NCBI GenBank assembly: GCA_946410525.1
Contig: CAMKAQ010000003.1
Coordinates: forward strand, 1-14,468
From: an uncultured Caryophanales bacterium
GTDB taxonomy: Bacteria; Bacillota_I; Bacilli_A; RFN20; CAG-826
Reading direction: 5' to 3'
DNA: 14,468 bases
The notes under the pieces were generated by a model, which was not told the origin of the DNA, searched no databases, and saw nothing but the letters and a program-made list of their open reading frames with translations. This document shows, in pieces, positions 3,737 through 14,277 of the stretch. A program made the translations under genes and the position numbers. Position 1 is the stretch's first letter, and every line of letters begins with the position of its first letter.

Positions 3737-3772
3737 TTTGTGGCACTTTTGTGAAATATCGAAAGATAACAT
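3737..3772 (+). promoter_or_regulatory. Shared activator-type promoter, copy A (giant surface protein)
   Basis: TTTGTGG-CACT-TTTGTGA (3737-3754) is a pair of seven-base direct repeats with an 11-bp period. It is followed by 12 bases and a TAACAT -10 box (3767-3772). At the -35 position stands CACTTT, so RNA polymerase probably needs an activator. Transcription would start near 3779. A further TTGTG at 3772 overlaps the -10. The same arrangement recurs at 9624 and 12167. Confidence 0.6.
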
Positions 3773-3835
3773 TGTGTCAGCTAATTACATAACGGGAAAA
3801 CGTATATTTTTTTCCGCTATAAGGAGGATTGGACC

Positions 3836-6800
3836 ATGAAGAAAACGAGTCTAATTAAGAAGATCGCGCTATCTTTAGCGTGCTTTTTAGGCCTTAGCGC
3901 AGGCATCAGTGCGGTCGCCACAATGAGTGATGCAAAAGCCATTGATGCTTACATTATGCCTATCCAAAACGCCAAAGAAGGAGGAACGACCGAGGTCTTT
4001 GACATCACTGTTGCCCGCGGCAACAACAGCCGACCTGGCTCGTTCGACTTCCGCTACTTTGGGTACTCAGCCAGTTATTCAGAGCCCTGGATGAAATTTG
4101 ACAACAACTACGAACATGAGATGTATTTCAACTCCCCAACGATCATCAGAAGCGTGGACATCTCTTTCAGCAAAGCGATGAACGACAGTCCTTATCAGCA
4201 AATTTCAAAGGATAAAGTGCGTTTCACCGTCACTGGCAGTGGCACAACCTATACAGGAAACGGTGGGCTCCACATTTCCAACATCAATAAAAAATGCAAC
4301 CTCACCATCAAATTCGAATATGTATACGATCCCGATAGCAGCGTTGAGATTTATGACCCTGTAGTTAGCGTCACACGCGATAGCGCTAATGTGGTTACTT
4401 TTAATGCCAATGGAATCGGAACAGCTCCTGCTTCCCAGGAAGTCGGCGATGGCGAAAAAGTCACAAAGCCGACAAATCCAAAAGCAACCGGTTATACCTT
4501 CGGAGGTTGGTATAAAGAACCTGCCTGCACAAACGCATGGAATTTCGATACCGACACCGTCACCAGGGACACCACCCTCTACGCTAAGTGGACTCACATC
4601 GATTTCGCGATCAGCTGGGATTTCGATGGTGGAACCACCCCGGTCACTTACCCAACTAGCTACCACCAGATGGTCGGCTTTGCCATCGATCCTGTCAACA
4701 ACCCAGTCAAAGCTGGTTATGAGTTCGTTGGTTGGAGCGGAACTGGCATCAGCGGAACATCGATGTTCATCAATGTTCCTTCCGGCAGCACTGGCAACAG
4801 AAGCTACAAAGCCAACTGGGAATTAGAAGAATACACCATCGATTACGGTTCGTATTACGTTGAAGGAAACCCAACGAAATACACCATCTTCACCGAGACT
4901 TTCACCTTAATTAACCCAACATATACCGGTTACACCTTTGCCGGTTGGAGCGGTACTGGCATCCCAGACGATGAGACCTGCATGACCGTCACCATCCCTC
5001 AGGGATCGACTGGCAACAGAGAATACTGGGGCCACGTCCAAGCCAATAAATACGATGTCACCCTCGATCCAAACGGTGGCAGTGGCGGAACATCCACAAT
5101 CAAAGCCACTTATGGCTCAGGAATGCCTAAAGTCAATTCCCTCCCAACTTGGGAAGGCCATACCTTCATCGGTTACTTTGACGCCGTCGAAGGCGGAGCA
5201 ATGTACATCGATAGCAGTGGCAATTCCGCCAGAAGCTGGAATAAAGCCCATGAATGGACCCTTTACGCCCACTGGCTCGTCAATGTCGACTGCACCGTCG
5301 AAATGGATAACGGTTTCAGCGGAGTCTACGATGGCGACGATCACTACATCGTCGTCTCTCCGACCATTGCCACCACAGGTGAGCCTTTGACTGACGCCAC
5401 TATTTATTACGGAACCAGCGAAAGCTCCTGCAACAACAGCGATCTTGAGCAATTCAAATTCTCCGAAGCCGGCGATTACACCGTCTATTACAAAGTCGAA
5501 AGAGATGGTTACCAAACCAAAACCGGAAGCAAGTCTTTCACCATCGCAAAGGCCGAATCCGCAATCGAATCCAATCCAACAGCCATCACCGGACTTCAGT
5601 ACACTGGCGAAGATCAAACCCTTATCCAAGCCGGATCTGCCAACTATGGCAACATGCTTTATGCCTTGACCGACGAAGAGGTCGTTCCAGCTGACGGCGC
5701 TTTCAGCGAAGACCTCCCAGAAGCCTGCGATGTCGGCACCTACTATGTCTTCTATAAGACAAGTGGCGATAACAACCATAACCCAGTCGCCTCTTCAGAG
5801 ACTCAGATGGTGACCATCCAGATCTCAAGAGTCAGCAGAACAGAAGCTACGCTTCTTGACCAAGAAGTTCAGGCCTTCATCAATACCTATGAAGAGAGAT
5901 TCGAAAGCATCACCGATGATCTCGAAGATTATTTGCTCGATTTCGAAGACGAAGCCATCGTAGAAGATAACGTCACCGCTTCAGAACTCGAAGACTTGAT
6001 CGAAGAAATGAGAGAGCACTTCAGCCTTGCTAAAGTCGGCATCATGGAAGGAATGATCGAGGACATCAATGTCGTCGTCTATCCGGATTCCGAAACCGCC
6101 TTAGAAGAAACCCGTAATTACTACGACAACGTCTTGACCGCTGATGAAAAACTCATGGTCGATGGCGATCTCTATGACAACTTTATGTTCTGCGAGAGCG
6201 TCTATGATAAAGTCGACAACGTGGTTACGCTCGTCAAGAACCTCCCAACCCCATCCGAAGAGGAAGCCTACTTCGATGCCTGCGATGCCGCTTATGAAGC
6301 CTACTCCACCCTTTCAGCCAACGAAAAAGACGTCTTTGAAAACAACACCGAAGACGATTACCTTAAGACCCTCCTCGACAATTGCGGGGCCGCTAACACA
6401 ATTGAGCTCATCAAGAACATCGGAGAAATCACCTATGCTGGTGGTGATGCCGATAGCGAAGAGGCCATCAGAACCGCCGAAAGCAGCTATCAGTCCTTAA
6501 CTTCTGACCGTCAGGCCATCGTGCAAACCGTCAACTACGACAAGCTCCTTAGAGCCCGCGAAATCTATGACGCGGTCGATGATTTGGTCAACATGACTGA
6601 GCATCTCCCAACTCCATCCGAAGACGCCGACTATTACGATGCAGTCGATGCTGCCTACGAATTCTATGGCACCTTAGACGAAGATGAACTCGCCGTCTTT
6701 AATGGCGCTACCGATAGCAACCACGCTAAAAAGCTCCTTGATAATGTCGCCGCTCGCGAAGTCATCGAGATGATCGAAGACATCGGCGATCTCGTCTATG

Positions 6801-9556
6801 GCAATGGAACCAATGATTCCTTAGCCGCCATCACCGCCGCGAAGAACGCCCTCGAAGCCTTAAGCGTTGACCAGAAAGATATCGTCGACTTAGTCAACGG
6901 AGAGACTCTCTACCATGACTATGAGGTCTATAACGCCGTCGATGATGTCGTCAAACTCATCAAAGCCATCCCAACCCCATCCGAAGAAGAAAGCTACTTC
7001 AGAGCGGTCGATACCGCCTACCAGGCCTATCTCACCCTCTCGTTCGAAGAACTTGTCCTCCTTCGTGCCGCCATCGACGCCAACCACGAAAAGATCCTCC
7101 TCGATCACCTTGCCGCCCGCGGAGCCATCGAGAAGATCAAGGATATTGGCACCCTCACTTATGGCAAGGGTCAGTCCGACTCCTTAGAGGGCATCGAAGA
7201 AGCGGAAGAAGCCTATGCCGCTTTATCCGCTGACCAGAAAGCCATGGTTGATGCCGTCAATAAGGGCACCCTTACCCATGACCGCACCGTCTATGACAAC
7301 GTTGACAACGTCGTCAAACTCATCGAAGAAATCGGTGAAGTCAAATATAACGATGAGACCAAGGCCAAGATCGATGCCGCCAGAACCGCTTACGATGCTT
7401 TGACCGAAGAAGAAAAAGCCTTAGTCGGTTCCTTCAACCATAGCAACAAGACCTTAGAAGATGATGAGGCCGTCTACGAAGCCTTGAAGGTCATCGCTGA
7501 AATCGGCGAAGTCGGTTACGACACCGATACCGAAGACAAGATCGAAAAGGCCAGGGAGATCTATGATTCCCTTAGCGACGATCAGAAAGCCCTCCTTGGC
7601 GAAGAGCCTCTTAGCACCTTAACCAATGCCGAAAGCGACTACGCCACGATGAAGACCAATGGCGACACCCTCGTCACCGTTCTCCTTATCGTCACCTCCC
7701 TCGCCCTTCTTGGTGGAATCTTCTTCCTTGTCTTCCTCCTTTGGAAGAGAAAGAAGGAAAAAGAAGACGAAGAAAACAAAAAAGAGCCAGCAAAAGCCAT
7801 GTCAATTGCCGGGTTCCTCCCATTCATCGTCTTAACTAGCCACTATGTCGACGCCCCATACATCATCCTCTACGTCATCGCTCCGATCGCTGTCCTTATC
7901 TGGGTCGCCGTCCTCGTTCTCTTCATCTTGGGCAAGAAGGGCATCGGACCTTTCAAGAAGAAAGCCGCCCCAAAAGCCAAAGAAGAGGAAAAGCTTCTTG
8001 AGGAAAAGGCAGAGGAACCAGTTGAGGAAAAGAAACCTGAGGAAAAACCGGTTGAGGAAAAACCAGCCGAAGAGAAACCTCTTGAAAAAGAAGAGGAGAA
8101 AGCCACTCCAGAATCCGAACCTTCTAAAGAAGAAGAGGAAGATGAAGTCATCACCGTCTCCGATGAGAAAGGCAATCTCTTTGAGATCAGGTTCATCAAA
8201 TCCTTCACCGCCAAACTCAGCCAGTCCCCAGAAGAGACGAAGAAGTATTACGAAGAGCTCAAGAACGAGGTCCTCTCCTATAAGAAGACCAACTCAAGAG
8301 TCTCCTGGCATTACGATTCCGTCAATTCCGGTCGTAGCCAAGTCCTTAGATTCGCCATCAGAGGCAAGACCTTAGGCGTCTATCTCCCTCTCGACGCAGA
8401 GAAATATCTCGATAGCAAATACAAAGTTGAGAAAGTCTTCTCGAAGAAGTATGAGGATACCCCATGCTTATACCGCATCAAGAACGACAGAAGATGCGCT
8501 TACGCAAAAGAGCTCATCGCGATTGTCGCGGAGAAACTTGGCCTCCAAAAAGGCAAAGAGCAGCATGAGTCCTACATCATTCCTAAGGAATCCACCAAAG
8601 CCTTGCTCGCCAAAGGCCTCATCAAGGAACAGAAAGTCCAGATGAAGAAGAAGGCTGAGCCGGTCGTCGTTGAGACGAAGCAAAACGCTGACGGCGATGA
8701 AATCGTCAGAACCAGGGATAGCAGTGGAACCCTCTTTGAGATCAGGTACGTCAAATCCTTCACCGCTAAGCTCTCGCAGGCCAGCGAAGAGGTGAGGAAG
8801 TACTATAACCTCATCAAGAACCACGCTCTCTCCTATAAGAAAGCCAACTCCAGGATCTCCTGGCACTATGACGCCATCAACGTTGGCAGAGAACAAGTCC
8901 TCAAGTTCGCGATCAGAGGCAAGACCTTATGCGTCTACTACGCCCTTAATGAGGTGGACGAGAAGTACAAGGTTGAGACCGCCAAATCGAAGAAATTCGA
9001 GGATACCCCATGCCTCTATCGTGTTAAGAACGATAGAAGAAGCGTCTACGCCAAAGAACTCATCGACATCGTGATGAAAAAAGCCCATGCCGAGCTAGGC
9101 AAGGAATCGAGTGAGGATTTCACCATCCCATACGAATCCACCAAAGCCCTCTTAGCGAAGGGGCTCATCAAGGAATTCAAGACGAAAGTCAAAGAAACCG
9201 AGAAAGAAGAGTTCGTTGACGAGCACCACGAGGATATCTCCGTTGAGGAAGCCGACGCCAGAATGTCTGACGAAGCTGCCGCAGCGAGCATCGAAGAGGA
9301 TGCGAAGAGCAAGAAGCACGAAGGCAAGAAAGGCATCATCAATATCGACACCATCAGCAAAAACTTCCATGATGGCGATAAAGTTGACCTCGAAGCCTTA
9401 TGGGCCAAGAAGCTCATCCCGCAAAGCGTAGGCTACGTCAAAGTCTTAGCGAGAGGCACCATCAACAAGAGACTCGACCTTGATCTCCAGGATTATTCCC
9501 TCCAGGCGGTCAAGATGGTCCTCCTTGAAGGTGGCACCGTTAAGAAGGCGAAATAA
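3836..9556 (+). CDS. Giant surface protein: InlB-type repeats, helical repeats, membrane segments, cytoplasmic repeats and uL15-like C-terminus
   Basis: The protein has 1906 residues, started by AAGGAGG 8 bases before ATG. Residues 1-36 are a signal peptide (KKTSLIKK, hydrophobic core, then SDAKA). A beta-rich domain covers ~38-185. Four InlB/Listeria-Bacteroides-type repeats follow (~186-252, 259-328, 333-400, 406-480), each with GY.F.GW or a variant. Two beta domains of MBG/Ig type follow to ~665. Residues ~666-1278 are acidic and helical, with three 121-residue repeats and two shorter units (AYDALTEEEKALV type). Membrane helices lie at ~1280-1303 and ~1322-1366; the second stretch probably spans twice. 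Basic flanks (KRKKEK, KKGIGPFKKK) place the C-terminus inside. An EKP-rich linker, two ~155-residue repeats and a uL15-like domain (~1833-1906) complete it. There is no LPXTG motif; the anchor is the membrane segment. It is probably an adhesin or envelope-spanning linker. Function is inferred. Confidence 0.95.
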   Translation: MKKTSLIKKIALSLACFLGLSAGISAVATMSDAKAIDAYIMPIQNAKEGGTTEVFDITVARGNNSRPGSFDFRYFGYSASYSEPWMKFDNNYEHEMYFNSPTIIRSVDISFSKAMNDSPYQQISKDKVRFTVTGSGTTYTGNGGLHISNINKKCNLTIKFEYVYDPDSSVEIYDPVVSVTRDSANVVTFNANGIGTAPASQEVGDGEKVTKPTNPKATGYTFGGWYKEPACTNAWNFDTDTVTRDTTLYAKWTHIDFAISWDFDGGTTPVTYPTSYHQMVGFAIDPVNNPVKAGYEFVGWSGTGISGTSMFINVPSGSTGNRSYKANWELEEYTIDYGSYYVEGNPTKYTIFTETFTLINPTYTGYTFAGWSGTGIPDDETCMTVTIPQGSTGNREYWGHVQANKYDVTLDPNGGSGGTSTIKATYGSGMPKVNSLPTWEGHTFIGYFDAVEGGAMYIDSSGNSARSWNKAHEWTLYAHWLVNVDCTVEMDNGFSGVYDGDDHYIVVSPTIATTGEPLTDATIYYGTSESSCNNSDLEQFKFSEAGDYTVYYKVERDGYQTKTGSKSFTIAKAESAIESNPTAITGLQYTGEDQTLIQAGSANYGNMLYALTDEEVVPADGAFSEDLPEACDVGTYYVFYKTSGDNNHNPVASSETQMVTIQISRVSRTEATLLDQEVQAFINTYEERFESITDDLEDYLLDFEDEAIVEDNVTASELEDLIEEMREHFSLAKVGIMEGMIEDINVVVYPDSETALEETRNYYDNVLTADEKLMVDGDLYDNFMFCESVYDKVDNVVTLVKNLPTPSEEEAYFDACDAAYEAYSTLSANEKDVFENNTEDDYLKTLLDNCGAANTIELIKNIGEITYAGGDADSEEAIRTAESSYQSLTSDRQAIVQTVNYDKLLRAREIYDAVDDLVNMTEHLPTPSEDADYYDAVDAAYEFYGTLDEDELAVFNGATDSNHAKKLLDNVAAREVIEMIEDIGDLVYGNGTNDSLAAITAAKNALEALSVDQKDIVDLVNGETLYHDYEVYNAVDDVVKLIKAIPTPSEEESYFRAVDTAYQAYLTLSFEELVLLRAAIDANHEKILLDHLAARGAIEKIKDIGTLTYGKGQSDSLEGIEEAEEAYAALSADQKAMVDAVNKGTLTHDRTVYDNVDNVVKLIEEIGEVKYNDETKAKIDAARTAYDALTEEEKALVGSFNHSNKTLEDDEAVYEALKVIAEIGEVGYDTDTEDKIEKAREIYDSLSDDQKALLGEEPLSTLTNAESDYATMKTNGDTLVTVLLIVTSLALLGGIFFLVFLLWKRKKEKEDEENKKEPAKAMSIAGFLPFIVLTSHYVDAPYIILYVIAPIAVLIWVAVLVLFILGKKGIGPFKKKAAPKAKEEEKLLEEKAEEPVEEKKPEEKPVEEKPAEEKPLEKEEEKATPESEPSKEEEEDEVITVSDEKGNLFEIRFIKSFTAKLSQSPEETKKYYEELKNEVLSYKKTNSRVSWHYDSVNSGRSQVLRFAIRGKTLGVYLPLDAEKYLDSKYKVEKVFSKKYEDTPCLYRIKNDRRCAYAKELIAIVAEKLGLQKGKEQHESYIIPKESTKALLAKGLIKEQKVQMKKKAEPVVVETKQNADGDEIVRTRDSSGTLFEIRYVKSFTAKLSQASEEVRKYYNLIKNHALSYKKANSRISWHYDAINVGREQVLKFAIRGKTLCVYYALNEVDEKYKVETAKSKKFEDTPCLYRVKNDRRSVYAKELIDIVMKKAHAELGKESSEDFTIPYESTKALLAKGLIKEFKTKVKETEKEEFVDEHHEDISVEEADARMSDEAAAASIEEDAKSKKHEGKKGIINIDTISKNFHDGDKVDLEALWAKKLIPQSVGYVKVLARGTINKRLDLDLQDYSLQAVKMVLLEGGTVKKAK
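4391..5275 (+). repeat. Four InlB-type (Listeria-Bacteroides) repeats within the giant protein
   Basis: The four beta units of about 67-75 residues are divergent in DNA and not recent duplications. Recognisable elements are VTFNANG or VTLDPNGG at the start, then GYTFGGWY, GYEFVGWS, GYTFAGWS and GHTFIGYF, and a final KWT, NWE or HWL. Units 2 and 3 share the SGTGI and GSTGNR segments. Such repeats are common in adhesive surface proteins of gut Bacillota. Confidence 0.85.
6203..7291 (+). repeat. Three tandem 363-bp (121-residue) helical repeats
   Basis: Units start at the Tyr codons at 6203, 6566 and 6929, and a fourth start lies at 7292. Each step is exactly 363 bases. Each unit has VD..V.L then a Pro-Thr-Pro-Ser-Glu turn, AYeaY.tL, LLDn.aA, IE.I.DIG and an AL..DQKA.V helix. 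The protein unit is clearly conserved while codons differ, so length is under constraint. After 7292 two shorter units lack the PTPSE turn and continue to the membrane segment. Confidence 0.92.
8156..9175 (+). repeat. Two copies of a cytoplasmic basic domain in the giant protein
   Basis: Copy 1 is 8156-8629 (residues 1441-1598) and copy 2 is 8711-9175 (1626-1780). Both contain LFEIR, KSFTAKLSQ, SYKK.NSR.SWHYD, a basic FAIRGKTL, KYEDTPCLYR or KFEDTPCLYR, KNDRR and YAKELI, and both end in STKALLAKGLIKE. I recognise this pattern from proteins of Firmicutes and Mollicutes often labelled as uL15-like or hypothetical. No catalytic role is known to me. The basic, Arg/Lys/aromatic composition would suit nucleic-acid or phosphate binding, but this is inference. 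Confidence 0.85.
9332..9553 (+). other. uL15-like C-terminal domain of the giant protein
   Basis: The last ~74 residues contain KVDLEALWAKKLIPQSVGYV, then KVLARGTINKRLDL and a helix ending in LLEGGTV. This follows the order of the C-terminal half of ribosomal protein uL15: 'v.l..L....lip....vKvLg.G.l.k.l.v', then a helix and GG. The domain is fused to a membrane protein, so it cannot be the ribosomal uL15 itself. Whether it still binds RNA is unknown. Confidence 0.7.
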
Positions 9557-9570
9557 CCCTTTGGAAAATT

Positions 9571-9598
9571 GCCTGATTTAAGAAATCAGGCTTTTTTT
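9571..9598 (+). terminator. Terminator of the giant gene
   Basis: GCCTGATTT (9571-9579) and AAATCAGGC (9583-9591) form a perfect 9-bp stem with a 3-base loop, followed by T7, 14 bases after the stop codon. Confidence 0.95.
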
Positions 9599-9623
9599 CA
9601 CCCTTAGGGGAAAAGAGCCCTAC

Positions 9624-9659
9624 TTTGTGGCGCTTCTGTGACACTCTGTGATTTATAGT
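9624..9659 (+). promoter_or_regulatory. Shared activator-type promoter, copy B (63-residue membrane protein)
   Basis: TTTGTGG-CGCT-TCTGTGA (9624-9641), then 12 bases, then TATAGT (9654-9659). A third repeat, TCTGTGA (9645-9651), follows in phase, one turn further on. The -35 position holds CGCTTC. Transcription would start near 9666, giving a 60-base leader to the ATG at 9726. Confidence 0.65.
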
Positions 9660-9725
9660 TGGATCACCAAAAGCATTTTCGCCATATTCTGCCGAAAGCC
9701 ACTTTGTTTCGTGAGGAGGAAAAAC

Positions 9726-9917
9726 ATGGACAACTTCTGGGATGAAGAAGAAGGTTCCGAATGGGACAAAGAAGCTTTTAAGCAGTTCGGATCACAGCCG
9801 GCAAAGGCTCAAAAGAAAGAGAAGAAGGCCAAGTACGTTCTCCTCGTATCTGGAATCGGCCTTCTCACCGTCCTCGTCCTTGTCCTTGGACTCGTCTTCG
9901 GACTTGGCGCCCATTAA
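9726..9917 (+). CDS. 63-residue tail-anchored membrane protein
   Basis: Start ATG 9726 is set by AGGAGG at 9714-9719, 6 bases upstream. The longer in-frame start at 9648 lies before the -10 box and is rejected. Residues 1-20 are acidic and aromatic (DNFWDEEEGSEW). Residues 21-36 are basic (KAQKKEKKAK), and 37-63 are a single Gly/Leu/Val-rich membrane helix ending in GLGAH. There is no signal peptide, so the expected topology is N-inside with the C-terminal helix in the membrane. I do not recognise a family. It lies between the giant protein and the kinase and has the same promoter type as the giant protein. It may be a small membrane partner of one of them, for example tuning the kinase; this is inference. 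It ends with its own terminator. Confidence 0.88.
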   Translation: MDNFWDEEEGSEWDKEAFKQFGSQPAKAQKKEKKAKYVLLVSGIGLLTVLVLVLGLVFGLGAH

Positions 9918-9928
9918 TTAGAAGCCAA

Positions 9929-10008
9929 GGGTTAACACCCTAACTTAGTCAAAAGGTTACGCGGCTTGTAACCACAAGGTCCTTGCGCCACAGGGGCCTT
10001 TTTCTTTT
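9929..10008 (+). terminator. Structured 3' region with terminator after the small membrane protein
   Basis: Three hairpins follow each other: GGGT-TAAC-ACCC (9929-9940), GGTTAC/GTAACC with a 7-base loop (9955-9973), and the terminator AAGGTCC (9976-9982) with GGGGCCTT (9993-10000) plus a T-rich tail. The first two are more than a terminator needs and may protect the short mRNA's 3' end. Confidence 0.75.
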
Positions 10009-10046
10009 CTGCGTGCGCATTATTTTTATAAAATGTCCAAATTTTG

Positions 10047-10052
10047 TATAAT
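10047..10052 (+). promoter_or_regulatory. -10 box of the histidine kinase gene, near-leaderless
   Basis: A perfect TATAAT ends 12 bases before the ATG at 10065, so transcription should start at about 10059 and leave a leader of only ~6 bases. No ribosome site is present. The -35 region is A/T-rich without a clear hexamer. Confidence 0.6.
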
Positions 10053-10064
10053 ATTAACTAACAG

Positions 10065-11321
10065 ATGGATAATAAAAGCGTCTTCAATGCAACCGTATGC
10101 ATTATCGGCATTGCCCTTTTGCTCATTCATACGGTGAACGTGCTTCTAAAAAAGAACAGAAGAAGGGATGAGAATAATCTCCTCGCCTTCATCGTTTTCT
10201 ATGCCTTCCATCTTGCCGTGTATCTCGCTTTCACCCTCATCAAGATGAATTACACGAGCAATGAGTTCATCATCGGCTTCTACACGAGCTTCTACGTGAT
10301 GAACAACTTCCAGGTCTTACTTCTTTTCGCCTATGCGATTTCCTATATCCCAATCAAAAAGGAGACCTTCAATCTCCTCCTTGTCATAAGCTTGAGCTTA
10401 TATGCCGTCTTCATTGCTTTAGACATCACGAATATCTTCAACCACATGTTCTTCTACGCGGAGAATGGGGTTTACATGAGATCGAAGACGATGATCATCT
10501 CGCAAGGCTATCAATTTGTCACCTTCGCGATGGTCCTTTGTCTGGCCTTATTCCATAAGAAAGTCAAAGTCGGCGAGAAGATCTCCTTTGCCGTCTATTG
10601 CCTCTTGCCGCTTGTCGCCATCATCCTTCAAAACATCTTCCCAGGATACGCGATCGCCTATCTTTCCGTCGTCATCGGCGTTGAGATTCTCTTCCTCTTC
10701 GTCAACGTCAGAAAGAACATGCAGCTTGCCGATGAAGCCAAGAAGATCAAGGATGCGGAAGTGAAGATCATGATCTCCCAGATCCAGCCTCACTTCATCT
10801 ATAACGTCCTCGCCTCAATCTCGACCCTCATCCCGATGGATCCTGAAAAAGCCCAGCAAGGTCTCGACCATTTCACCGATTACCTTAGAGCCAACCTCTC
10901 TTCCTTGTCGAAGGATGGTCTAGTCAATTTCTCTGATGAACTTAGGCACATTGAAACCTATATCTCTTTAGAGAAGATGAGGTTCGAAGACCGTTTGGAG
11001 GTCGTTTATGACATCCAGGCCAAGGACTTCATGGTCCCGGCTTTATCTCTCCAGCCGATAGTCGAGAATGCGATTAAGCACGGCATCCTCAAGAAGATCG
11101 AAGGTGGAACCCTTACCCTTAAGACCTATGAGGATAGGGACGCTTACGTGGTAGTGGTGAGCGATAACGGCGTTGGTTTCAAAGTCGACGCCGTCAAAGG
11201 AGACGATCATTTCGGACTCAATAACATCAAGTACCGCATCTCCTCGATGTGCAAAGGCGATGTTCAGGTCGAAAGCGTGATTGATCAAGGAACAACCGTC
11301 ACGATTTCCTTCTATAAGTAG
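10065..11321 (+). CDS. LytS/YehU-type membrane histidine kinase
   Basis: This is a 418-residue protein. Residues 1-~220 contain seven predicted membrane helices with short loops and no extracellular domain, so the sensor is in the membrane, perhaps sensing a lipophilic ligand or a membrane partner. A short helix precedes the His_kinase domain (LytS/YesM class): SQIQPHFIYNVL with phosphoacceptor His243. PIVENAIKHG (N335) is the N box. DNGVGF (D367) and HFGLNNIK are the ATP-lid motifs. All key residues are present. Family knowledge: the kinase phosphorylates the partner regulator on Asp. The regulator follows 8 bases after the stop and is surely co-transcribed. The start codon lies ~6 bases after the predicted transcription start. 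Confidence 0.95.
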   Translation: MDNKSVFNATVCIIGIALLLIHTVNVLLKKNRRRDENNLLAFIVFYAFHLAVYLAFTLIKMNYTSNEFIIGFYTSFYVMNNFQVLLLFAYAISYIPIKKETFNLLLVISLSLYAVFIALDITNIFNHMFFYAENGVYMRSKTMIISQGYQFVTFAMVLCLALFHKKVKVGEKISFAVYCLLPLVAIILQNIFPGYAIAYLSVVIGVEILFLFVNVRKNMQLADEAKKIKDAEVKIMISQIQPHFIYNVLASISTLIPMDPEKAQQGLDHFTDYLRANLSSLSKDGLVNFSDELRHIETYISLEKMRFEDRLEVVYDIQAKDFMVPALSLQPIVENAIKHGILKKIEGGTLTLKTYEDRDAYVVVVSDNGVGFKVDAVKGDDHFGLNNIKYRISSMCKGDVQVESVIDQGTTVTISFYK

Positions 11322-11329
11322 GCGTGTTT

Positions 11330-12088
11330 ATGAAAGTGTTGCTAGTCGATGATGAGAAACTTCAGCTCATGAGGCTTGAAGGCGCAGTCAAGAAAGTCCT
11401 TCCTGACGCGGAGATTCTTTCATATATCAACCCTTTGGAGGCATATAGCCAGAACAAGGATAACCAAATCGACATCGCTTTCCTCGATATCGAAATGCCT
11501 GGCCTCAATGGGGTCATGCTCGCCAAGAAGCTCAAGGCCATCAACCCAAAGATCAACATCATCTTCGTGACTGCCTATGACAACTACGCCAGAGAAGCGA
11601 TGAAACTTCGTGCCTCAGGATATGTCTCTAAGCCTGTAAGCGAAACCAAAGTCAAAGAAGAAGTGGAGGGCCTCCGTTACCCGATCGAGCTTAAGCCATC
11701 CAAAGACCTTCAGATCAAATGCTTTGGAAATTTCGAGGTCTTCTTTGATGGAAAGCCTCTACGTTTCTCCTATTCGAAATCAAAAGAGCTCTTCGCCTAT
11801 CTAGTCGATAGAGAAGGTTCGGCGATCAACATCAACGAACTCAATGCCGTCCTTTGGGAAGAAGACCATAAGTCCTATCTAAGGAATCTCATCGCCGATA
11901 TTCAGAAAACCCTTAAGGACGTTGGCTGCCAAGACGCTTTCGTGAAAAGCCATAACGGATATTCGATCGACGTCGATAAAGTCGAATGTGACGCCTACGA
12001 ATACAAGAAGGGGAATCCTGACGCGGTACGTATGTACCGTGGGGAATACATGATTCAGTATTCTTGGCCGGTCTTCGAAACTTTCTAA
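11330..12088 (+). CDS. Response regulator with SARP/BTAD-like DNA-binding domain
   Basis: This is a 252-residue protein. Residues 1-~118 are a CheY-like receiver: D7/D8 in LLVDDEK, phosphoacceptor D53 in FLDIEMPGLNG, T81 and K101 in GYVSKPV. Residues ~126-252 are a winged-helix domain of the SARP/BTAD class rather than LytTR: KCFGNFEVFFDGKPLRFSYSK, then KELFAYLVDREG, LNAVLW, SYLRNLIADIQKTL and a closing MYRGEYMIQYSWP. The combination LytS-type kinase plus receiver-SARP regulator is known in gut Firmicutes; LytTR would be the classical partner. Start ATG 11330 is preferred to GTG 11324 because KVLLVDD then begins normally. SARP-type proteins bind direct repeats 11 bp apart, which is the geometry of the shared promoter element in this window. 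Confidence 0.92.
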   Translation: MKVLLVDDEKLQLMRLEGAVKKVLPDAEILSYINPLEAYSQNKDNQIDIAFLDIEMPGLNGVMLAKKLKAINPKINIIFVTAYDNYAREAMKLRASGYVSKPVSETKVKEEVEGLRYPIELKPSKDLQIKCFGNFEVFFDGKPLRFSYSKSKELFAYLVDREGSAININELNAVLWEEDHKSYLRNLIADIQKTLKDVGCQDAFVKSHNGYSIDVDKVECDAYEYKKGNPDAVRMYRGEYMIQYSWPVFETF

Positions 12089-12103
12089 AAATTGGAAAAT
12101 GGT

Positions 12104-12129
12104 AAAAGCAGCCATGACGGCTGCTTTTT
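12104..12129 (+). terminator. Terminator of the kinase-regulator operon
   Basis: AAAAGCAGCC (12104-12113), loop ATGAC, GGCTGC (12119-12124) and T5 form a compact stem 15 bases after the stop codon of the regulator gene. Confidence 0.93.
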
Positions 12130-12166
12130 CATACGTTTTCGAAAAAACTTTTAAAAAAGCGCCTTA

Positions 12167-12202
12167 TCCGTTGCGCTTTTGTGACAAGTGGGGTGTTACC
12201 AT
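12167..12202 (+). promoter_or_regulatory. Shared activator-type promoter, copy C (non-coding stretch)
   Basis: GCGCTTTTGTGA (12173-12184) is followed by 12 bases and TACCAT (12197-12202). Conserved core, spacing and -10 agree with copies A and B. The upstream repeat is poor here (TCCGTTG, 4 of 7). Transcription should start near 12209, and no open reading frame with a ribosome site follows before the terminator. Confidence 0.55.
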
Positions 12203-12208
12203 AGTCCT

Positions 12209-12436
12209 GCTTAAGATCCATATAGAGGCGATAAAATCCTGTTCCTTCCCTTTTTGGGCTTAAGCGAATCAAAACACAATTGCCTCTGGCATTTCCTGTT
12301 TCATGGATACGCCCGGTGAGCGGTCTCTCCTTTCTCCGCTCCAGTATCCATTCATAGAATGAGGATCATCCTATAGTTCCACCTCCTCATCTCTATCAAA
12401 AAAGCGGGCCCATCAGAAGTGGCGGGCCCTTTTTGT
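12209..12436 (+). ncRNA. Candidate ~228-nt regulatory RNA with anti-Shine-Dalgarno segments
   Basis: The stretch lies between a promoter (copy C) and a strong terminator and holds no convincing gene; the longest ATG frame is 19 codons and has no ribosome site. It is structured. ATGGATAC (12303-12310) pairs with GTATCCAT (12344-12351). Inside it GAGCGG (12318-12323) pairs with CCGCTC (12336-12341), closing a 12-base all-pyrimidine loop, TCTCTCCTTTCT. GCTTAAG (12209-12215) can pair with CTTAAGC (12259-12265), or ATAGAG (12222-12227) with CTCTAT (12391-12396). CCACCTCCTCAT (12379-12390) resembles the 3' end of 16S rRNA and is complementary to AGGAGG ribosome sites; eight bases pair with the site of the gene at 9726. 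I do not recognise an RNA family. 6S RNA or a mere long leader remain alternatives. Confidence 0.5.
12398..12436 (+). terminator. Terminator of the candidate RNA
   Basis: GGGCCC (12406-12411) pairs with GGGCCC (12424-12429) across a 12-base loop. It is flanked by an A-run on the left and TTTTT on the right. It separates the RNA from the AbrB operon, which has its own promoter. Confidence 0.85.
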
Positions 12437-12492
12437 TATTTAAAAGAACTGTTCTTTTTTAAAAATGAACAGCAAAACCCCGCTCTTTTTAA

Positions 12493-12535
12493 TTTTTGTG
12501 GGGGATATTGCACAAAAATGGGGGAGTAGTATAAT
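12493..12535 (+). promoter_or_regulatory. Promoter and candidate operator of the AbrB-ABC operon
   Basis: TTGCAC (12508-12513), 16 bp and TATAAT (12530-12535) form the promoter. TTTTTGTG (12493-12500) and CACAAAAA (12511-12518) are a perfect 8-bp inverted repeat with a 10-base spacer, covering the -35. TGGGGGA occurs at 12499 and again at 12519, 20 bp apart, on the same DNA face. An operator for the AbrB-type protein encoded first in the operon is likely. Confidence 0.65.
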
Positions 12536-12569
12536 AAGAAAAGTAAGAAAAGTAAGACGGAGGAAAGAC

Positions 12570-12773
12570 ATGAAAGAAATCGAAGACAATAGATTCATCG
12601 TCAGCGTCAGAGTGGGTCCTAAAGGCCAGATCACCATCCCAGTCCAGGGAAGAAAGATGTTCGACATCAAAGAAGGGGATACCCTTATGGTCATGGGTGA
12701 CAAGAAAAGAGGCCTCGCCCTTTTGAAGACTGACCTTTTCTACGAAATCATGGAACAGGGAGAGAAAAAATGA
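12570..12773 (+). CDS. AbrB/MazE/SpoVT-type DNA-binding regulator
   Basis: This is a 67-residue protein started at ATG 12570, with GGAGG (12559-12563) 6 bases before. The longer frame from 12465 would begin before the promoter and is rejected. RVGPKGQITIPVQGRKMFDIKEGDTLMV is the swapped-hairpin fold of the AbrB family, in which a dimer binds DNA through its beta-strand loops. GLALLK follows as the last strand, and a short helix ends the protein. It is the first gene of a four-gene operon; its TGA overlaps the ATG of the ABC ATPase (ATGA). Small AbrB proteins in this position usually regulate the transporter operon they head. A palindrome over the promoter fits autoregulation. An antitoxin role is unlikely because no toxin gene follows. 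Confidence 0.92.
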   Translation: MKEIEDNRFIVSVRVGPKGQITIPVQGRKMFDIKEGDTLMVMGDKKRGLALLKTDLFYEIMEQGEKK

Positions 12774-13621
12774 AGATCCTTGAAGTGAAGAACCTTTGCA
12801 AGCACTACGAGAAATTCGACCTCAAAAACGTCTCTTTTGAAATCAAGCCAGGCAAAATCATCGGCTTCATCGGAAGAAACGGCGCAGGCAAAACCACAAC
12901 TCTCAAGTGCATCTATAACCTCGCTAAGCCAACTAGCGGCGAGGTCCTATACGACTCAAAACCAATCATCGATGTTGAAGCGGACTACAAGCAAGAAGCC
13001 GCGATGCTCATCGGTGAGATGAACTATTACGGCGCCAAAACCGTCAAATCATTAACGAACGTCACCAAGAAGTTCTATAAGAACTGGGACGAGGACCTTT
13101 ATCACAGATACCTTGAAACCTTCAATATCGATGAGAATAAGCAAATCAAAGCCCTCTCAACCGGTATGAAGGTCAAATATGGTCTCGCTCTCGCTTTGTC
13201 TAGAGGCGCAAAAATCCTCCTTCTTGATGAACCAACCTCTGGTTTAGACCCAGTTAGTAGGGATGAGCTCCTCGATATCTTCCTTGATCTCGTAAGCGAC
13301 AAGGAACACTCAATCCTCTTCTCCACGCACGTCATCTCTGACTTAGAGAAATGCGCGGATGACATCATCTACATCAAGAAAGGGGAGATAATCGTTAACG
13401 AAAGCGTCTCCACCTTCGAATCCGCCTATCTCCGTTACGAAGGACCAAGCGAGATTCTTGCCAAAGAGAAAGACAGATTCATCTTCTATCGTGACCGCCT
13501 TGGGAAATTTGAAGGCATCATGAAGAAGAAAGATGAGATTGACGCCTTGGAAGGCGTAGAGAAAAGAAAGGCTTCCATGGAAGAGATCATGGTCGCATTC
13601 GAAAGGGGTGAGCAAGAATGA
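12770..13621 (+). CDS. ABC transporter ATP-binding protein (ABC-2 type)
   Basis: This is a 283-residue protein. Walker A is GRNGAGKT (35-42), the signature is LSTGM (129-133, a variant of LSGGQ), Walker B is ILLLDE (149-154), followed by PTSGLDP for the D-loop, and the switch histidine is in STHV (H187). The Q-loop region reads LIGEMNYYG; the usual Gln is replaced by Glu or Met. This also occurs in the YtrB-like branch of bacitracin/lantibiotic or cell-envelope ABC exporters. Residues ~215-283 are a C-terminal extension typical of these subunits. It powers the permease encoded next (4-base overlap, ATGA). The substrate is unknown. The operon resembles GntR/AbrB-led ytr-type loci that respond to cell-wall stress; this comparison is inference. 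Confidence 0.95.
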   Translation: MKILEVKNLCKHYEKFDLKNVSFEIKPGKIIGFIGRNGAGKTTTLKCIYNLAKPTSGEVLYDSKPIIDVEADYKQEAAMLIGEMNYYGAKTVKSLTNVTKKFYKNWDEDLYHRYLETFNIDENKQIKALSTGMKVKYGLALALSRGAKILLLDEPTSGLDPVSRDELLDIFLDLVSDKEHSILFSTHVISDLEKCADDIIYIKKGEIIVNESVSTFESAYLRYEGPSEILAKEKDRFIFYRDRLGKFEGIMKKKDEIDALEGVEKRKASMEEIMVAFERGEQE

Positions 13622-14277
13622 AAAAGCTTCTTTATAAAGAGATTGTGCTATGCACAAACTTCCAGATTATCCTTTTCACCTGTTTTGCCGTTTTCGTCCT
13701 TATCCCATCTTGGCCACCGGCAATCGCCTTCATCTATCCTTTAAGCGGACTTATGGCGTTATTCCCAACCTGTCTTGCCAACAAGGACATCGAATACACG
13801 TCGCTTCTCCCAATCAAGAAAACCGACATTGTTAAGGCAAAAGCCCTTTATTTAGGGCTCATCGAGATTGCGGTGGTCCTATTAGCCGCGATCGCTGGCC
13901 TTGTCAGGTTCTTCTTATATCCAACTCCAGAGAAACCTGAGGAGCTTGCCTATTTCATGGCCACTAGACCTAGCATCTCCTTATTAGGCTTCGCCTTCAT
14001 GTCCTTCGGTGTCATGAACCTTGTCCTCTTAAGCATGTATTATCGTGACCCATATAAGAGGCTCACCGGGCCAAACATCGTTTCCCTTATTGTCTGCATT
14101 CTCCTCCTTACCGCAGGATCGTTGGTCATTGCATTCATCCCTGCTTTGAGGGAATATGACACTATAGGATTAATCACACAGCTATTAACCTTGGGAGCGG
14201 GAATCATCCTTTATGTCCTCTTCAGCTTCCTTGGCTATAAGAGCGGTGCGAAAGCCTTCTTAAACATCGATCTATGA
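13618..14277 (+). CDS. ABC-2 type transporter permease
   Basis: This is a 219-residue membrane protein with about six helices (~16-32, 35-53, 77-101, 119-141, 153-176, 183-207). The cytoplasmic loop after helix 2 reads DIEYTSLLPIKKTDIVKAK. This is the D-E-x-x-LPx-(K/R)x-x-I-V-x-x-K pattern of the ABC-2 permease group that contacts the ATPase. It overlaps its neighbours by 4 bases on both sides, so stoichiometric translation with the ATPase and the lipoprotein is expected. Only one permease is visible; it could act as a homodimer, or a second permease gene may lie beyond the window. Confidence 0.9.
   Translation: MKKLLYKEIVLCTNFQIILFTCFAVFVLIPSWPPAIAFIYPLSGLMALFPTCLANKDIEYTSLLPIKKTDIVKAKALYLGLIEIAVVLLAAIAGLVRFFLYPTPEKPEELAYFMATRPSISLLGFAFMSFGVMNLVLLSMYYRDPYKRLTGPNIVSLIVCILLLTAGSLVIAFIPALREYDTIGLITQLLTLGAGIILYVLFSFLGYKSGAKAFLNIDL

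Follow-up and report, generated by a model that had tools for sequence, protein, structure and literature searches.

A direct-repeat DNA element occurs three times in a stretch of 14,468 nucleotides (hereafter the window) from the genome of an uncultured Caryophanales bacterium. The window is contig 3 of an assembly of 1,006,554 bases that comprises 170 contigs and is 85% complete. Very probably, as judged from the comparison of genomes, the three elements are copies of one family-wide 11-bp direct-repeat element. It would serve as operator for the response regulator whose gene lies at 11330-12088, by which a surface protein, a predicted 63-residue membrane protein and a predicted small RNA would be switched on. 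The repeat, its fixed distance to a -10-like hexamer, a preferred start column, its conservation and its co-occurrence with the regulator are all read directly from the compared sequences, as are the kinds of open frames behind it in the sample of sites examined.

The full element is the 11-bp direct repeat TTTGTGGCRCT-TYTGTGRCA, i.e. two tandem units of approximately TTTGTGGCACT, which occupies the -35 position and is followed exactly 12 nucleotides downstream by the -10. A preliminary description of this DNA had recognized its 12-mer GCRCTTYTGTGA at 3743-3754, 9630-9641 and 12173-12184. The 12-mer is indeed found at all three places with zero mismatches, but it is only a part of the element, which extends to the complete repeat. 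Element A (3737-3754) is made of the heptamers TTTGTGG (3737-3743) and TTTGTGA (3748-3754) and element B (9624-9641) of TTTGTGG (9624-9630) and TCTGTGA (9635-9641), both with the 11-bp period that had been reported. In element C (12167-12184), a degenerate first heptamer, TCCGTTG (12167-12173), precedes TTTGTGA (12178-12184). The -10-like hexamers TAACAT (3767-3772), TATAGT (9654-9659) and TACCAT (12197-12202), the latter preceded by the TG of an extended -10, lie exactly 12 bases behind the respective elements, as had been noted, and predict transcription starts at about 3779, 9666 and 12209. The elements are located upstream of the surface protein gene (3836-9556), the small membrane protein gene (9726-9917) and an apparently non-coding stretch (12209-12440), respectively. 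All features listed between 3.7 and 12.4 kb of the window are on the plus strand.

The genome-wide search that had been recommended for GCRCTTYTGTGA-N12-TANNNT returned three exact matches in the whole assembly, all of them in the window and none within a recognized gene, while the pattern read backwards gave no match. With two mismatches, the 12-mer alone was found 8 times in the window (4.1 expected). The half-element, 12-mer-N12-TANNNT with two mismatches, was dropped as a search key because it was not specific (6 matches in the assembly and 5 in the reversed control). The longer 18-mer TTTGTGGCRCTTYTGTGA-N12-TANNNT, with at most 3 mismatches, yielded 24 matches against 1 in the reversed control in the nine genomes of the genus that bear the locus. 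Finally, 28 sites in loci that do not belong to the genus were used to build a 36-column weight matrix. Only three places of the window scored above 6, namely A, B and C (38.3, 25.9 and 23.0), and the top score in 100 shuffled windows was 12.3. Since the 28 sites were chosen for their similarity to the 18-mer of the window, the recovery of the three sites is partly circular; the lack of any further scoring place in the window is not.

The grammar of spacing and start was examined in loci outside the genus. Relatives of the regulator, with 61-96% identity, are encoded in 80 public loci, six of which are contigs of genus genomes; the remaining 74 loci represent 1.11 Mb. The 80 loci bear the labels of, among others, Bacilli, Erysipelotrichaceae, Bacillales and also Clostridia in their public records. 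Rumen, reticulum or omasum is named in the titles of 20 of them, and many others come from RUG isolates, which we take to be rumen genomes. In the 74 outside loci, sites were selected by their likeness to the 18-mer of the window, blind to the downstream sequence. This gave 28 matches with at most 2 mismatches (control, 0) and 54 with at most 3 (control, 3), of which 53 are on the strand of the regulator gene, and at least one site with at most 3 mismatches was present in 36 loci. A TA...T hexamer lies exactly 12 nucleotides behind the element in 42 of the 53 sites whose downstream sequence was long enough, the runner-up spacing being seen in 10, which bears out the fixed spacing that had been claimed from three copies. 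In the same way, a pyrimidine-purine step is found at column 42 in 38 of 53 sites (20 for the runner-up column in the tested range); this column corresponds to positions 3779, 9666 and 12209 of the window. The TG of an extended -10 was present at its place in 27 of 53 sites.

The element also co-occurs with the regulator. Within the genus, the exact pattern was found in 7 of 37 genomes with 14 matches in total (reversed control, 0). The regulator is encoded in six of these seven genomes; in the seventh, G005, a site and the kinase gene are on a contig that stops within the kinase gene. There was no exact match in the 28 genus genomes devoid of the locus. G020 and G015, which also bear the locus, contain sites with 3 mismatches. 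In a family set of 196 genomes, in which the regulator was called at E<=1e-50 and sites at no more than 1 mismatch, the regulator was found in 48 genomes and sites in 56, with no control match in all 196. Sites were present in 45 of the 46 genomes whose regulator is at least 61% identical and in neither of the two whose regulator is more distant (48% and 40%); Fisher's exact test for 45/48 against 11/148 gave P of about 4e-30. Copy C of the window is omitted from these counts, as its first repeat is not matched by the pattern with at most 1 mismatch. In a class set of 296 genomes, which shares family members with the 196-genome set, sites were observed in 6 of 7 genomes with the regulator and in 3 of 289 without it (2 matches in the reversed control). 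Sites in G099, G330 and G345 look like chance matches or, for G345, a misplaced contig, and were kept in the counts. The exact element of G345 (C49, 1255-1288), found in a genome of another family, is nearly identical to one in G206 and is due either to a misplaced contig or to horizontal transfer. A lack of the element in relatives, which the preliminary description had set as a refuting outcome, was thus not seen in the genus, family and class sets, in which the element also goes with the regulator encoded at 11330 that this description had named. The element is spread across a bacterial family and is not confined to this locus.

The kinase encoded at 10065-11321 has six hydrophobic segments, as seen by a simple hydropathy scan, followed by His_kinase (PF06580) and HATPase_c domains. 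The regulator carries a receiver domain (PF00072) in which, among 64 sequences, D9, D10, D55 and T83 are nearly invariant and K103 is invariant. The two proteins hence bear the domains and the phospho-acceptor residues of a two-component pair. AlphaFold2 run with 64 sequences predicted a receiver-winged helix fold (pLDDT 85, pTM 0.58), which superseded an unusable model from the single sequence (pLDDT 37). By Foldseek, the model matched the OmpR/PhoB homologue 1p2f over both domains (229 columns, E 2.2e-13) with a different domain-domain arrangement (root-mean-square deviation 14.7, TM-score 0.42). VIA-align was uninformative on the DNA-binding part because its matches cover the receiver part only. 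The winged helix is predicted to be of a divergent OmpR/SARP type. By sequence it leans to EmbR, AfsR and Trans_reg_C, all below significance. For Trans_reg_C the regulator scored 13 bits against a cut-off of 26.2. Among 21 relatives, 8 matched Trans_reg_C at E<=1 (best E 0.0028) and 6 weakly matched the NCBIfam AfsR model (best E 0.018), while E values of the same order were obtained for unrelated models. No BTAD match was obtained behind the winged helix at a threshold of E 10, at which the HMMER filters drop most matches above about 0.1, and only some 35 residues follow the predicted winged helix. The DNA-binding domain ends in a conserved CDAYEYKK..PDA.R.YRGEYM, outside the part matching the Pfam model.

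Several observations nevertheless weigh against the regulator-operator relationship. G015, whose regulator is 66% identical, has only sites with 3 mismatches, which is at noise level, and these are away from the regulator; a matrix scan of 20 kb around its regulator gene gave no site. Likewise, in G138 (72% identical regulator) no site was found at 1 mismatch or less, nor did the matrix reveal one on its contig of 5.5 kb. No site with at most 3 mismatches was present in 38 of the 74 outside loci. Conversely, sites are present in 11 of 148 family genomes that have no close regulator at E<=1e-50. Among these, the regulator gene is cut by a contig end in G194, where a remnant is left, and is decayed in G043, where a well-kept element stands right behind it (L201, about 1140-1311). 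G102 (94% complete) is an unexplained exception: it has 13 sites and no closer relative of the regulator than one of 29% identity. In the 80 loci, 11 of 64 sites lie inside a mechanically defined open frame of at least 100 codons, and some of these are probably chance matches. Within the window itself, the first repeat of copy C is poor (TCCGTTG), and copy C is the only one of the three with the TG of an extended -10. The DNA-binding domain, for its part, stays below significance (E 0.12 for Trans_reg_C, 0.084 for EmbR and 0.61 for AfsR) and unrelated proteins score alike, with a dipeptidase at 0.12 and, in the profile search, KaiC at 0.27 beside EmbR at 0.28.

The mechanism that we propose is modelled on AfsR/SARP and PhoB-type regulators. 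The kinase would sense an envelope or extracellular signal and phosphorylate the regulator at Asp55 (numbering from 11324). Two regulator molecules would then bind the two repeats head-to-tail, centred at about -31.5 from the predicted start, where they would stand in for the -35 and bring sigma region 4 and RNA polymerase to an intrinsically weak -10. We infer in this way the binding, phosphorylation and activating role of the regulator, the transcription of the RNA and the joint control of envelope proteins and peptides, the protein products of the targets being predicted envelope proteins.

Other explanations of the element have been considered. TTGTGA resembles the half-sites of Rex and CRP operators, and the window encodes at 833-1468 a Rex-like protein, presumably Rex in view of its two Pfam domains. 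However, Rex and CRP operators are inverted repeats, whereas the element is a direct repeat with an 11-bp period and copies B and C have no inverted partner by eye. Moreover, the Rex-like protein does not track the element, since it is present in 32 of the 37 genus genomes (E<=1e-20) and exact elements in 7; Rex was rejected as the cognate regulator on this occurrence, the tracking test having covered the Rex-like protein. An operator of Rex or of a CRP/FNR-family protein is consequently very unlikely. The constant distance to the -10, seen in many promoters, would also suit an alternative sigma factor that takes the element as its -35 region. However, the -10 belongs to the TATAAT type of housekeeping promoters, often with TG before it (the 27 of 53 sites mentioned above), an 11-bp repeat makes up the upstream part and the presence of the element tracks a two-component regulator, so that there is scarcely any probability left for such a sigma factor, for which no search was made. 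Chance, or the duplication of a single stretch of sequence inside the locus, could be invoked since there are only three copies within 8.5 kb and the loosened half-element occurs at background level. This is next to negligible given that counts exceed the reversed controls in the genus, locus-bearing, family and outside-loci sets and that the flanks of the three copies are, by eye, unlike each other.

Closer to our proposal is the idea that the regulator encoded at 11330 binds the element as a repressor, or is required only when unphosphorylated, as position alone cannot separate activation from repression. The -35 position holds CRCTTY, unlike TTGACA, and a consensus scan of 9500-12600, which covers B and C, found no sigma-70-type promoter at either copy; the unaided promoters should therefore be weak. 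In addition, the element is positioned close to where the AfsR box is centred (-29.5; PMC10936776). Repression is thus unlikely, and activation by the two-component regulator is the explanation that we retain.

The genes found behind the element in relatives give an idea of its range. The 42 sites with TA...T from the 74 outside loci were classed by downstream frame: 17 precede an open frame of at least 600 codons, 6 a Nif11-like precursor (strict pattern) and 12 other frames, while 7 have no frame with a ribosome-binding site within 400 nucleotides. Three of the other frames encode a protein of 464-465 residues, and the copy from G131 that was scanned is a radical SAM/SPASM protein. Five giant downstream proteins were scanned, of which three, encoded directly behind the regulator, had List_Bact_rpt repeats like the surface protein of the window, one the related InlB B-repeat and one no match. 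Another 20 stretches from 11 genomes were chosen for holding sites and are a selected sample, not a census. There, peptides with the form LLKGLTEEQIAKVKACK...LTDEQLxAVSGG-C..., almost always 56-102 residues long, are encoded behind 39 of 55 sites, and the other sites precede lipoprotein-like proteins (5), a long protein (1), other proteins (3) or no gene (7). Two of the peptides were scanned and stayed below the cut-off of the Nif11 models, with 22.0 and 19.6 bits against 23.8 for Pfam and 21.1 and 19.6 bits against 32.3 for NCBIfam. In G131 (L177, 1605-9528), ten genes for Nif11-like CxxC peptides are found in 8 kb, each with its own element, and the sequences of the peptides differ after the GG.

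The highest number of sites, 29, was counted in G176. The small regulon that had been proposed fits the three exact sites of this assembly, but in some relatives the sites number in the tens. Similarly, all sites of the assembly are at this one locus, yet four sister genomes contain an unlinked further candidate target. In these, an element begins 62 bp upstream of the gene of a membrane protein of 134-135 residues (L049, 4189-4655; L079, L080, L081). It has zero mismatches in G007 and, in G005, G019 and G020, 3 mismatches with the -10-like hexamer at 11 nucleotides. A tandem paralogue upstream of this gene has no element match at 3 mismatches. In the assembly of the window, only a 45%-identical relative of the protein is present (G000:C2:3428-3802) and no element was found outside the window at 3 mismatches, for which reasons this target is not claimed for the window genome. 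In three sister genomes, G007, G006 and G021 (L048, L050, L054), no giant surface gene lies between those of the transmembrane protein and the small membrane protein, whereas element B is retained together with the genes of the kinase and the regulator; in G006 a match to the last 21 residues of the giant protein remains. Also in G006 (C47; 4164 in the oriented L078), a gene of the opposite strand is followed by a terminator-like hairpin whose loop is an element with 1 mismatch, an arrangement that is unexplained.

Taken at the scale of the family, a broader view, towards which we incline only slightly, is that a hitherto unrecognized SARP-like two-component system may be the master switch of a family of uncultured Bacilli, many members of which have been found in the rumen. 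A single sensor-regulator pair with a single promoter grammar would together switch on giant InlB-repeat surface proteins, lipoproteins and Nif11-leader CxxC-rich peptides, the last in arrays in which each peptide has a promoter copy of its own (up to 29 sites per genome); to these a regulatory RNA would be added in the genus of the window.

The predicted small RNA (12209-12440) begins with a hairpin at the predicted start and contains CU-rich stretches. Its fold has a z-score of -3.8. A GC stem (12404-12429) followed by a T-run (12430-12434) was seen by eye and by folding and is absent from the listing of the terminator scan. An alignment was made from 7 of the 9 locus-bearing genus genomes (G007 is cut by a contig end; G005 and G015 were not included). 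The first hairpin is mostly kept and a CU-rich stretch, TCTCCTTT, CTTTCCTTT or similar, is present in all seven sequences. The consensus fold is weak (-5.67 kcal/mol), with 18 pairs of which 5 are changed on both sides in at least one sequence. No convincing target was found for pairing with mRNAs of the window, the best P being 0.03 for 2 of the 10 mRNAs tried, and the RNA-family search returned only tRNA-His at gathering scores. The RNA would act post-transcriptionally, possibly through pairing of its CU-rich stretches with ribosome-binding sites, as proposed for the csRNAs under CiaR control in streptococci.

As for the other features of the window, the predicted target of A is a surface protein of 1906 residues with List_Bact_rpt repeats and an internal transmembrane part: hydrophobic segments in mid-protein are followed by two similar domains. 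Residues 1834-1902 match ribosomal L15/L27A above the Pfam cut-off, an odd fusion, with that part probably on the cytoplasmic side. A terminator-like hairpin and T-run (9571-9598, hairpin part 9571-9591) separate the surface gene from element B. The 63-residue protein, the predicted target of B, has one predicted transmembrane segment, an assignment that also drew on the hydropathy of orthologues, and a further terminator-like hairpin lies downstream of its gene (9976-10000). Before C, a hairpin resembling a terminator by eye (12106-12130) was missing from the terminator scan. The protein encoded at 2225-2626 matches PBECR3, a family of phage-type nucleases, below the threshold. Directly behind the predicted RNA, at 12570-14277, are genes for an AbrB-type regulator, then for an ABC ATPase with a below-cut-off match to PmtA, and for a membrane subunit.

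These data provide a concrete candidate operator, with its spacing and predicted start, for a group of response regulators for which no published one was found in searches of an open-access library, in hosts known here only from metagenome assemblies. On this basis, regulons can be read from sequence, and the 36-column matrix flags peptide precursors, surface proteins and RNAs possibly under common control.

How does this system compare with known ones? Two of the 120 homologues listed, of 3963 found, are named in their source 'Two-component SAPR family response regulator'. That name means a receiver, a winged helix and a BTAD, the last of which was not detected in the regulator of the window. 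No operator published for this regulator group, or for a SAPR-family regulator, was found in searches of an open-access library. With the OmpR/PhoB family, the regulator shares the receiver and the predicted winged helix, and the differences are a Trans_reg_C match below cut-off only and the extra conserved C-terminal stretch. In pho-box promoters, 11-bp direct repeats stand in place of the -35, a position that is taken by PhoB-type regulators.

The CiaRH system of streptococci has a direct repeat TTTAAG-N5-TTTAAG with an 11-bp period, a -10 sought 10 nucleotides behind it and targets that include small RNAs with a terminator, the csRNAs (PMC3091779). A two-component regulator, an 11-bp-period direct repeat and a small RNA among the (here predicted) targets are thus common to both. 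The repeat sequence is different, however, and the spacing is 12 nucleotides here. Only one RNA is predicted, which is likened to the csRNAs by its arrangement only, next to a surface protein and a membrane peptide as the remaining targets.

The closest parallel in promoter anatomy is offered by the SARP-type promoter, described as direct repeats with an 11-bp period that overlap the -35 (PMC5930380, PMC10972967, PMC10936776), an arrangement that the element reproduces. AfsR in particular binds two 11-bp repeats centred at -29.5 that overlap the -35, with sigma region 4 docked (PMC10936776). Here, too, two 11-bp direct repeats, each a heptamer with a 4-bp spacer, cover the -35 near a -10 (compare PMC10936776, PMC5930380), and their centre is at about -31.5 from the predicted start as against the -29.5 given for AfsR. 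Many targets in relatives resemble precursors of peptide natural products, as SARPs control antibiotic clusters. On the other hand, the present protein is a response regulator that has a receiver domain, is paired with a kinase and shows no detected BTAD, the host belongs to the Bacilli and the repeat sequence differs. Since no BTAD was found, we do not claim that the regulator is a SARP; on account of its anatomy, that is, geometry, residues and predicted fold, we propose that it works like SARP or PhoB. This suggests that a two-component system of Bacilli employs the SARP-style takeover of the -35 to control peptide products, a kind of cargo like that in Streptomyces.

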